Assembly (NCBI RefSeq): GCF_002931555.1
Contig: NZ_PSTZ01000011.1
Coordinates: forward strand, 124,001-188,000
From: Pseudoclavibacter sp. RFBB5
GTDB lineage: Bacteria > Actinomycetota > Actinomycetes > Actinomycetales > Microbacteriaceae
DNA length: 64,000 bases
Reading direction: 5' to 3'
Position 1 is the first letter of the stretch. Each line of letters opens with the position of its first letter. The translations under genes were made by a program, and so were the position numbers. Below are positions 15,791 to 32,711 of the stretch, piece after piece. The notes beneath the pieces were generated by a model. The model did not search any database and was not told the origin of the DNA. It saw nothing but the letters and a program-made list of their open reading frames with translations.

Positions 15791-16648
15791 ATGGCAATTG
15801 TCATCACCGGCGCGACCGGACAGCTCGGCACCCTCGTCATCGACAGCCTCCTCGAACGAGGTGCGGCTCCCGCCGACATCGTCGCGGGCGGGCGCAACGT
15901 GGAGCGCCTCGAGCAGCTCGCCTCGAAGGGCGTCCGCACTGCCGTCATCGACTACGCCCGCCCCGAGACAGCCGCGGAGGCGATCAGCGCCGGCGACACC
16001 GTGGTGCTCATCTCCGGCAACGAGGTCGGGACCCGCGTCGCCCAGCACGAGACGATCATCGACGCGGCGAACGACGCAGGTGCGGCCCGGATCATCTACA
16101 CGAGCGTCCTCGGCGGCGACCCAGACGCCCTCATCCTCGCCCCGGAGCACGTCGCCACCGAGTCCCTCATCCGCGAATCGGGCCTGCCCTACACCGTCGC
16201 CCGCAACGGCTGGTACACCGAGAACTACGTCGCCGAGATCGCCCAGGGCGAGACCACGGGCGTCATCGCGAACAGCGCCGGCAAGGGCCGCGTCGCGAGC
16301 GCGTCGCGAGCAGACTACGCGTCGGGCATCGCCGCAGTCGCCCTCGAGGACGGCCACGACGGCAAGGTCTACGAGTTCTCCGGCGACAAGGCCTGGGACT
16401 TCGACGAGTTCGCGAAGACCCTCGCCGACGCCATCGGCCGCGACGTCGAGTACCGCGCCCTCACCACGGAGGAGCACGCGGCGGCCCTCACTTCGAACGC
16501 CGTCGACGAAGGCACGATCGGCTTCATCACCGGACTCGACGCCAACATCCGCGACGGCGCCCTCGGGCTCACGACCGGCGACCTCTCCCGCGTGTCCGGG
16601 CGACCGACGACCACCCTCGCCGAGACGCTCCGCACCCTGACCGCGTAG
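15791..16648 (+). CDS. NmrA/QorB-like NAD(P)-binding oxidoreductase
   Basis: A 285-residue atypical short-chain dehydrogenase. N-terminal VITGATGQLGTLV is the NAD(P)-binding glycine motif, followed by IIYTSVLGGDPDALIL, YTVARNGWYTENY and a C-terminal NmrA-like substrate domain. It resembles quinone oxidoreductase QorB (YtfG), which reduces quinones with NADPH. Sensor-type NmrA proteins without catalysis are an alternative. GGAAGGA is nine bases before ATG. It is divergent from fdhA across a 257-base gap in which no clear operator was recognised, and is followed by the hairpin array. Confidence 0.82.
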   Translation: MAIVITGATGQLGTLVIDSLLERGAAPADIVAGGRNVERLEQLASKGVRTAVIDYARPETAAEAISAGDTVVLISGNEVGTRVAQHETIIDAANDAGAARIIYTSVLGGDPDALILAPEHVATESLIRESGLPYTVARNGWYTENYVAEIAQGETTGVIANSAGKGRVASASRADYASGIAAVALEDGHDGKVYEFSGDKAWDFDEFAKTLADAIGRDVEYRALTTEEHAAALTSNAVDEGTIGFITGLDANIRDGALGLTTGDLSRVSGRPTTTLAETLRTLTA

Positions 16649-16712
16649 CGCCGCGAGCTCGGCGCGCAGCGTGCCGCCGCGACCCGAGGCTCTCGACCCT
16701 CGACTTGCCCGC

Positions 16713-16780
16713 TTTCGGGATGGGTTACACGCACGCAGATGGGTTGCAGAGCATCCGCGTGCGCGAACGCCATCCCGAAA
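16713..16780. repeat. Long-stem palindrome beside the hairpin array
   Basis: Outer arms TTTCGGGATGG (16713-16723) and CCATCCCGAAA (16770-16780) pair perfectly. Inner CGCACGC and GCGTGCG segments extend the stem. It shares the CGGGATGG...CCATCCCG tips with the tandem hairpins that start about 80 bases later. It lies 65 bases after the qorB-like stop codon. Confidence 0.8.
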
Positions 16781-16860
16781 CGGAAGCGGCAGCTAGAGAC
16801 GGCGGCGGCAGCCGCCGAGGCGACACGGTGCAGCCCGCCGCCGGTCCCGCAGGGCCAGGC

Positions 16861-17216
16861 GAGCCGGTAAGGCGAGCACGCACGCCACACCCGACTCGGG
16901 ATGGAGAACTCACTTCGTTGCGGGAACTTTCCCAGCACGAAGCGATGTTCCCATCCCGAGACGCCCCGGGGAGCAGGCGAGCCGGTAAGGCGAGCACGCA
17001 CGCCACACCCGACTCGGGATGGAGAACTCACCTCGTTGCGGGAACTTTCCCAGCACGAAGCGACGTTCCCATCCCGAGACGAACACGGGGAACAAACGAG
17101 CCGGTACGGCGAGCACGCACGCAACGCCCCACTCGGGATGGAAAACTCACCTCGTTGCGGGAACTTTCCCAGCACGAAGCGATGTTCCCATCCCGAGACG
17201 AGCACGGGGACGGGGC
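16861..17216. repeat. Three tandem ~118-bp units, each a long hairpin
   Basis: Units start at 16861, 16979 and 17098 (periods 118 and 119) and are about 90 percent identical. Each opens with GAGCCGGTAAGGCGAGCACG and contains a stem of about 60 bases running from CTCGGGATGGAGAACTCAC to its imperfect complement ending TTCCCATCCCGAG. The array fills most of the 612-base gene-free gap between the convergent qorB-like and solA-like genes. No open frame in the gap looks genuine. It is not CRISPR: there are no unique spacers. Confidence 0.9.
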
Positions 17217-17260
17217 GGGGCAGGCGTTCGGCCGCACGGCCGAGCGGATGCGCGGAGCGG

Positions 17261-18436
17261 CTACCGCAGGGGCTGCGCGGCGAGCGAGCGCGGCCGGTTC
17301 AGGGAGAACAGCTCGGGCGCCGCGCCCGGGCCGTTCTCGGCGAGGTCGGCACCGAGTCGCCCGATCGACGGCACGAACTTGAAGCCCTCCCCCGCGAATC
17401 CGGCGAGCACGACGATGCGGCCGACTCTGTCGACCACGAACCTGGCGTCGTCGGTGGTCGTGTAGGTGCAGCTGATCGGTTCGGCGCTCTCAGCGTCGAC
17501 GCCGGGCAGCCAGTCGCGGGCGTACTGCCTGATCGCGTCGAGCTGCGCCGGCACCGGCAGGAAGTCGCGCGAATCGGGGTCCACGATGGGCCCAACTCCG
17601 TGCCAACCCGCTTTGATGCCCTCGCCCGGCGTGAGCATCCCGTAGACGGGGGAAAGCCACCCCTCGTACCCGGGGCGGCCGAACGCCGGGAGGTGGTTGA
17701 AGCTCGGCCAGTCGATGTAGCCGTTGAACTCGCGGAAGTGCACGGGTGCTTCCTGCGTGACCCGCATCCGCGGCAGCTCGACGATGCCGGCGAGCAGCGT
17801 GCGGGTCCACGCGTTGACGGCCGAGACGACGACCTTCGCCGTGATCGTCTCGCGCGCGTGGCCGCGGTGCTCCGGCGCCTCACCCCACGAGTGGGCCTCG
17901 ACGACGACCCGATCGGTCTCCTCCACGACGCTCACGGCGCGCTTGCCCCAGCTCAGCTCGGCCCCACTCGCCGCGGCCAGCTCAGCCATGCTGGTGAGCG
18001 CATCGGCGGCCCGGACCCGGCCCGCTCTCGGCAGGTGCAGCACCTCGGTATCGAAGCGGATGCCCGGCCACCGCTCGCCCGCGTCCTTCGTCGAGAGCAG
18101 CTCGGCCGCCTCCCCTCCCGCGGAGATGACGGCGTGGACGTCCGGGCTCGCAGCCCCCGGCCCGTGGTTGACGAGGCCGACGAGGTCGAGGACCTGCCGG
18201 CCGGAGTCGAGCTGCAGCTCGGTCCACAGCGCGCGCGACTCGTGCAGCATCGCGACGAGGTCAGGCTGCGTGTACGAGGTGTTGAAGTTCCGGGTCGCAC
18301 CGTGGGACGCGCCCTGGTGGTGGCCGGGCTGGAACTGCTCGAGCAGCCGGACACTCCTGCCGCGCCTCGCCAGCTGCCACGCGGTCGACAGCCCCATCGC
18401 TCCGCCGCCGATGATGAGCACGTCAACGTCAGTCAT
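17261..18436 (-). CDS. Sarcosine oxidase / N-methyltryptophan oxidase-like flavoenzyme
   Basis: A 391-residue FAD amine oxidase of the DAO/SolA family. Seen: IIGGGAMGLSTAWQLARRG at the N-terminus, the GASHGATRNFNTSY flavin region, CTYTTTDDARFVVDR with a Cys near residue 326 in the position of the covalent flavin Cys of monomeric sarcosine oxidase, and GFAGEGFKFVPSIG near the C-terminus. Family members oxidise secondary N-methyl amines, giving H2O2 and formaldehyde or an imine. It is divergent from a TetR gene, an APC permease and a saccharopine dehydrogenase-like gene, which fits amine import and oxidation. The exact substrate is unknown. Confidence 0.87.
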   Translation of the reverse strand: MTDVDVLIIGGGAMGLSTAWQLARRGRSVRLLEQFQPGHHQGASHGATRNFNTSYTQPDLVAMLHESRALWTELQLDSGRQVLDLVGLVNHGPGAASPDVHAVISAGGEAAELLSTKDAGERWPGIRFDTEVLHLPRAGRVRAADALTSMAELAAASGAELSWGKRAVSVVEETDRVVVEAHSWGEAPEHRGHARETITAKVVVSAVNAWTRTLLAGIVELPRMRVTQEAPVHFREFNGYIDWPSFNHLPAFGRPGYEGWLSPVYGMLTPGEGIKAGWHGVGPIVDPDSRDFLPVPAQLDAIRQYARDWLPGVDAESAEPISCTYTTTDDARFVVDRVGRIVVLAGFAGEGFKFVPSIGRLGADLAENGPGAAPELFSLNRPRSLAAQPLR

Positions 18437-29312: not shown

Positions 29313-29390
29313 GATCATCAAGTGTAGATCGTCGCCGCCGGACGGGCTCTTCATCCACAGGCGGATGCGGTGTGAGCCGCGCACACGAAC

Positions 29391-32672: not shown

Positions 32673-32711
32673 GGCTGGATGCGCAACCCCTGGCTCGCAT
32701 CCCGGAACGCA

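Follow-up and report, generated by a model that had tools for sequence, protein, structure and literature searches.

A clade-restricted family of REP-like palindromes in Pseudoclavibacter and its tandem array between two convergent genes

Introduction

Tagged interspersed palindromes have been described mainly in proteobacteria. REP-type repeats are portrayed as dispersed palindromes that follow gene ends, form clusters and sometimes occur in genes (PMC3733652; PMC1525189). The REP/BIME repeats of the GTAG and CGTC super-families are found for the most part near 3' ends, in gaps between genes that converge or run in the same direction, with some copies inside open reading frames; these repeats are 20-40 bp long with an unpaired tag at one end, the CGTC stems measure 8-9 bp, and CGTC REPs are also reported without a dedicated transposase (PMC3733652). 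REPINs rely on a RAYT transposase and are described as doublets of inverted repeats, 89 bp long in one case (PMC2817692; PMC3116915). The Rickettsia palindromic elements, of about 150 bp and often intragenic, are given as examples of palindromic repeats kept in frame in protein genes, and the same source characterises MITEs as small, dispersed elements with inverted repeats at their ends and no gene of their own (PMC10969869). Closer to the genomes considered here, REP-like families without a tag are mentioned for M. tuberculosis and D. radiodurans (PMC3733652), and a prediction tool is reported to have returned REP candidates in three actinomycete genomes (PMC12306157).

Here we analyse an array of palindromes in a stretch of 64,000 nucleotides (the window) from the actinobacterium Pseudoclavibacter sp. 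RFBB5, and the family to which its hairpins belong. We found no description of this family in the open-access literature searched.

Results

The array and its parts

The array lies in an intergenic gap of exactly 612 bases between an NmrA-like gene and a FAD-dependent oxidoreductase gene that converge on each other (Table 1). Both this gap length and the presence of three tandem hairpins with a fourth related one had been put forward in the original prediction, and the repeat comparison, the folds and the gene calls bear them out. Direct-repeat comparison gives three tandem units of 118-119 bp each (16849-17204), spaced by 118 and 119. The outer two are 92% identical to the middle one, in line with the predicted likeness of about 90%, and the 64-nt cores of the three differ pairwise at 2 of 64 positions. 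The predicted stem of about 60 bases did not hold up: the array hairpins are about 64-74 nt long, and their imperfect stem has some 30 pairs at most. Their predicted folds are very stable, at -44.3, -40.1 and -34.7 kcal/mol (z -8.8, -6.6 and -5.6; 0 of 200 shuffles as good), with -42.5 kcal/mol (z -6.7) for the fourth hairpin. A search of 16300-17500 against Rfam returned three miRNA models, all far below gathering, and no match near gathering.

The tandem copies might be an artefact of assembly, for which three identical copies confined to this assembly would have been the sign. The units, however, differ from one another, and the orthologous gap in P. terrae holds a class B hairpin plus one degenerate class A hairpin (the classes are defined below), which makes an artefact unlikely; clusters with other spacings also occur at other sites and in the assemblies of other species. 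We regard this explanation as highly improbable.

Table 1. Positions of the array, its flanking genes, two sites without an element, and the mazG copies (positions refer to the window unless a contig is given)
Feature	Position	Strand	Remarks
Flanking gene, NAD(P)H-binding/NmrA-like	15791..16648	+	ends 66 nt before the first core
Class B 64-bp palindromic core	16715..16778	no strand	pairing extends to 16713-16780; G000:C17:140715
Tandem unit 1	16849..16966	no strand	repeat comparison; direct-repeat match to 16967
Class A 64-bp core, copy 1	16896..16959	no strand	repeat, fold, genome model search
Tandem unit 2	16967..17085	no strand	repeat comparison
Class A 64-bp core, copy 2	17014..17077	no strand	repeat, fold, genome model search
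Tandem unit 3	17086..17204	no strand	repeat comparison
Class A 64-bp core, copy 3	17133..17196	no strand	repeat, fold, genome model search
Flanking gene, FAD-dependent oxidoreductase (DAO), converging	17261..18436	-	
Empty site in this strain	29362..29368	no strand	P. terrae +202 bp with core and second copy of the 7 bp; P. helvolus core nearby; AY1F1, AY1H1 none
Empty site in this strain	32703..32704	no strand	P. terrae +79 bp with core; P. helvolus, AY1H1 carry core; AY1F1 none
mazG loci	G000:C1:996848; G001:C1:967315-967684		L117, L180, L224-L228

The palindrome family

The core of the array is a near-palindrome of 64 bp with the tips TCGGGATGG and CCATCCCGA. A search of the strain's own genome with the array matched at many places, mostly with the hairpin alone. 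From the first loci, an extraction pattern that permitted 56 to 74 bp gave 47 distinct cores, 44 of them 64 bp long, two 63 bp and one 62 bp. Thirty-five cores align without gaps, and the search model was built from these. The model finds 59 cores in 37 regions of the strain's own genome (G000, 3.77 Mb; 150 scored candidates gave 118 matches, both strands counted), so that the unit's hairpin does recur elsewhere, as the original prediction had suggested looking for. The same search finds at least 74 cores in P. terrae (G001), where matches made up 148 of the 150 candidates scored, so that the count is a minimum.

The cores fall into two classes. Those of class A have the inner sequence CTTCGT...GGGAA...TTCCC...ACGAAG, and those of class B carry a second half-site, CGGGATGG, 19 bp inside each tip. 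The spans from left to right tip in the loci fetched from the strain's own genome and P. terrae follow these 19-bp steps: 142 of 149 are 64 (78 cases), 45 (49) or 26 (15) bp.

Relation to described repeats

In their habit the palindromes are REPs in the broad sense, with 58 of the 59 cores in the strain's own genome and 70 of the 74 in P. terrae located outside predicted genes. Like the GTAG and CGTC super-families as described in PMC3733652, they are interspersed, clustered and placed at 3' ends, with some copies in open reading frames, and, as for the CGTC REPs of that account, no dedicated transposase is found for them in a search for the Y1 type. The differences concern structure. The Pseudoclavibacter cores are 64 bp long with matching tips at both ends, and neither the unpaired tag at one end nor the stem of 5-13 or 8-9 bp of the tagged REPs is found in them. 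CGTC directly adjoins one end of 18/59 cores in this strain, 17/74 in P. terrae (and both ends of a further 1/74), 8/43 in P. helvolus (G002) and 3/37 in strain AY1H1 (G007); GTAG is not among the ten commonest tetramers outside the ends in these four genomes.

REPINs are of similar size, but they depend on RAYT, and a search for Y1 transposases (Y1_Tnp, PF01797) matched none of the ten genus genomes, including that of this strain, whereas the control matched in 5 of 14. This speaks against a RAYT-mobilised REPIN. The terminal inverted repeats formed by TCGGGATGG and CCATCCCGA recall MITEs; in contrast to those, the Pseudoclavibacter element is palindromic throughout, and no consistent target duplication is found at the compared sites. 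The Rickettsia palindromic elements resemble the core in mazG (see below) but are often intragenic, whereas here 1/59 and 4/74 cores lie inside predicted genes. The untagged families of M. tuberculosis and D. radiodurans likewise fall outside the tagged super-families, and the candidates from the three actinomycete genomes are likewise actinobacterial; both are likened to the present family by description only. Because the REP habit fits while the tag, the stem length and the Y1 transposase do not, we file the palindromes as a new untagged REP family.

Distribution

Counts of the tip pattern in the ten genus genomes are 59 in this strain, 70 in P. terrae, 56 in AY1H1, 44 in P. helvolus, 24 in AY1F1 (G006), one in G008 and zero in the remaining four; the reversed pattern, used as a control, is absent from all ten. 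The element-bearing Pseudoclavibacter are thus this strain, P. terrae, P. helvolus, AY1H1 and AY1F1, and the five other genomes of the genus have none or one. At two or fewer mismatches the tip pattern matched in 126 of 299 Microbacteriaceae genomes, three of which are element-bearing Pseudoclavibacter. Outside the genus it occurs 0 to 5 times per genome, and we take these matches as chance because the reversed control also reaches 5 and the palindromic inner sequence is absent at these places among the matches listed. Among relatives searched with one tandem unit, 6 of 60 genomes matched, this strain included, and the single one outside the genus matched over 34 bases only. Carriage by a phage or plasmid is likewise disfavoured: 101 bases of unit 2 match nothing among the plasmid records (72,556) or the phage records (50,697) searched. 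In a viral collection one contig matched the tips exactly; its inner sequence is unlike that of class A or class B.

Within the genome of this strain, the interval G000:C1:1-865930 (866 kb, 23% of the genome) contains no core, compared with 59 elsewhere, and in P. terrae the core matches, among those listed, are confined to contigs C1, C5, C6, C7 and C8. The parS clusters place the origin on contig C13 of this strain. Nine gene segments were mapped to the one-contig genome G003, some at several places or weakly, and because this mapping is partly ambiguous we make no claim of an origin bias of the elements. A search of six genomes for parS-like sites, at two or fewer mismatches, gave 8-13 in five of them and none in P. 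helvolus, where part of the assembly may be missing.

Turnover between species

Most element regions are shared between species: 34 of the 37 in this strain are partnered with an element region in P. terrae, two of the 34 sharing a single partner. The array itself is not. Its gap contains the cores B-A-A-A in this strain. In P. terrae it has a B core and a single degenerate A, in AY1H1 a single degenerate B, and in P. helvolus and AY1F1 nothing recognisable. To judge from these alignments, the array is a lineage-specific tandem expansion of the A unit. The original prediction had seen in the upkeep of so unstable a structure a sign of function; the array is not maintained between species, and its upkeep is therefore no argument for function.

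Presence and absence were compared at five further sites (29362, 32703, L195, L186 and L205; for the first two see also Table 1). At 29362, P. helvolus and AY1F1 differ by a clean 67-bp indel, made up of a single core and 3 nt and flanked on either side by AC. P. terrae alone has the core at L195, and P. helvolus and AY1F1 show short remnants there that resemble the tips; the core at L186 is shared by P. terrae, P. helvolus and AY1F1 and absent from this strain and AY1H1; at L205, an alignment of two genomes shows P. terrae to be 87 bp longer than this strain. Apart from the 7-bp repeat around the 202-bp difference in P. terrae and the AC around the 67-bp difference, both of which may be deletion footprints, nothing consistent flanks the elements at the other compared sites. 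The element at 32703 was probably ancestral and then lost. Across the compared sites, element loss is, as the sequences read, frequent, and no gain at a single site is proved. At 29362, 32703 and L195 a separate hairpin is conserved across the five species with a few substitutions, in those that lack the element as in those that carry it.

Two core pairs about 5 kb apart (L141/L142; G000:C13:22634-27940) correspond to a single pair in P. terrae (L185), an insertion or deletion between element pairs that recombination between them may have caused.

Placement relative to genes

Genes were called with our own codon-based gene finder, which was later retrained. With the first model, 46 of the 59 cores in this strain lie between convergent genes, 12 between tandem genes, one inside a gene and none between divergent genes; with the retrained model the numbers are 47, 11, 1 and 0. 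The 74 cores of P. terrae are distributed as 47 convergent, 23 tandem, four inside genes and none divergent. Within element-bearing regions, the gaps of at least 64 bp that are occupied in this strain (retrained model) number 27/49 convergent, 9/120 tandem and 0/58 divergent, and the corresponding gaps in P. terrae number 26/35, 15/58 and 0/33; because the regions were chosen for holding an element, these rates are not genome-wide, and the contrast between gap types, examined by Fisher tests, is what counts. Convergent gaps have been discussed as harmless and highly supercoiled places for REP-type repeats (PMC1525189).

Constraint and pairing

Between this strain and P. terrae, 42 orthologous cores are 90.1% identical, a value between those of aligned spacer (80.6%) and coding sequence (93.8%). 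Left out of this set are L124, a mispaired comparison of an A with a B core, and a core at L120 whose class is uncertain. The tips changed at 21 of 756 sites, the inner positions at 246 of 1932; conservation of the tips so far above that of the remainder favours a function today over a pure relic. At Watson-Crick pairs we count nine double changes versus 1.75 expected, all nine restoring pairing, and 66 one-sided changes; with the L120 core kept, there are nine double changes versus 1.8 expected, nine of them compensated. These counts replace an initial one on 44 cores (16 double changes versus 2.5 expected, 13 compensated), which included the mispaired L124. The strong covariation in the 35 cores of the model was likewise discarded: that set mixes classes A and B, and within one class and genome the signal is absent for A and modest for B.

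This is also the outcome when the fit of each core's arms to each other is compared with that of shuffled arms within one class and genome, using one core per cluster and 21 inner pairs. Own arms fit better in class B: 15.5 versus 14.7 in this strain (p 0.03), 16.3 versus 15.5 in P. terrae (p 0.0003), 16.9 versus 15.7 in P. helvolus (0/3000) and 16.5 versus 15.7 in AY1H1 (p 0.018). In class A they do not (14.2 versus 14.2, p 0.51, in this strain; 14.0 versus 13.8, p 0.23, in P. terrae). Because the fit is better in class B only, we consider the sequence of the tips, not pairing, to be the main conserved feature.

The original prediction had proposed a strong bidirectional terminator or a small RNA. 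As a terminator or a 3'-end mRNA hairpin, the RNA stem would stop or protect both converging transcripts, and the placement after gene ends with none between divergent genes, the stability of the predicted hairpins, the excess of compensated double changes and the fit of the class B arms are all consistent with this. However, the T-tract of an intrinsic terminator (at least five T within the next 12 nt) is found at 2 of 118 element sides; G-U mispairs do not exceed A-C mispairs on the transcribed strand in tandem contexts (12 versus 14 in 11 cores, 15 versus 26 in 23 cores); class A arms fit the partners in other copies equally well; 22 of the 49 convergent gaps in the element-bearing regions of this strain lack an element; and at three sites it is the separate hairpin that is kept in five species with or without the element. 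Given the missing T-tract, the lack of a G-U excess and that separate hairpin, a terminator or a small RNA is unsupported as the main role, for the small RNA in keeping with the Rfam result, and we think a terminator or 3'-end hairpin quite unlikely to explain the family.

An alternative explanation is that the palindromes maintain themselves neutrally, with template switching keeping the arms alike and slippage multiplying the copies in the absence of selection. Template switching at quasi-palindromes is described as homogenising arms and inverting spacers (PMC8604942) and as maintaining stems (PMC8794818). The class B arms of P. helvolus are mosaics of short block variants, and between this strain and P. 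terrae one core is inverted as a whole (L137) and another in its inner part (L132), as such a process would produce. Yet it leaves unexplained the dispersal of one sequence to 37 regions, as well as the slower change of tips than inner part and of cores than spacers, and we find it improbable as a full account.

A protein binding site, also named in the original prediction, would fit the conserved tips. They could be read by a sequence-specific protein, such as a nucleoid protein, a gyrase-type docking factor or a domesticated recombinase, which would recognise half-sites in 19-bp steps where converging transcription piles up supercoils. The slow change of the tips, the quantised spans, the near-fixed 64-bp length (44 of 47 extracted cores) and the convergent placement agree with this. 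The turnover of positions between species and the restriction to one clade do not. We hold such a site to be unlikely; among the live rivals it is nonetheless the one of greatest interest, since both the tips and the 19-bp steps have been preserved.

Copies inside genes

The mazG gene contains an in-frame core after the MazG domain in all five element-bearing species, where it encodes variants of DSGW..LGM..KPSGSEKAIPKP, and no core in the five other genus genomes. In P. terrae there are four such copies, all in frame, in 102-bp steps (34-codon repeats). The in-frame retention of an insertion in a coding gene is the habit of Rickettsia palindromic elements, to which this copy is similar (PMC10969869).

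A second open reading frame holds a core in frame in P. terrae and P. helvolus, and the copy in this strain has none (L205 at about 3000; L055 at about 1500; L221); the P. terrae copy is 87 nt longer than that of this strain, in frame. At 0.001, Pfam gives no match for the P. terrae protein, which we take to be phosphopantetheinyl-transferase-like.

Discussion

We consider it likely that the array is part of a clade-restricted, REP-like family of non-autonomous interspersed palindromes, with a spread, inheritance and secondary function of the following kind. The family would have spread in an ancestor by means of a trans-acting enzyme that recognised the conserved tips, and copies would have survived mainly at places where they harmed no promoter. 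Present copies would mostly be inherited vertically and lost by deletion, while slippage or unequal exchange may copy elements locally. Template switching, or exchange from copy to copy, would account for part of the continuing similarity of the arms, and selection on the tips for another part. Any function in the cell would be secondary: the elements might cap converging transcripts at their 3' ends or add a further roadblock to them, or might bind a protein or topoisomerase.

A more speculative possibility, which we doubt, is that the 64-bp core with its exact 19-bp-step half-sites serves as the docking site of a chromosome or recombination protein, specific to the clade, that acts at the meeting points of converging transcription ends, with the size of the array tuned locally, nearly a quarter of the chromosome avoided, and one copy recruited as a coding linker in MazG.

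The Pseudoclavibacter palindromes represent a compact and well-defined family within a genus of actinobacteria whose sister species lie at a useful distance; the family shows orthologous presence and absence and array expansion, and has no known mobiliser. The occupied and empty orthologous gaps form a natural experiment on the effects of repeats on transcript ends and supercoiling, and the core in mazG illustrates how a housekeeping gene can carry a palindromic repeat without loss of its reading frame.
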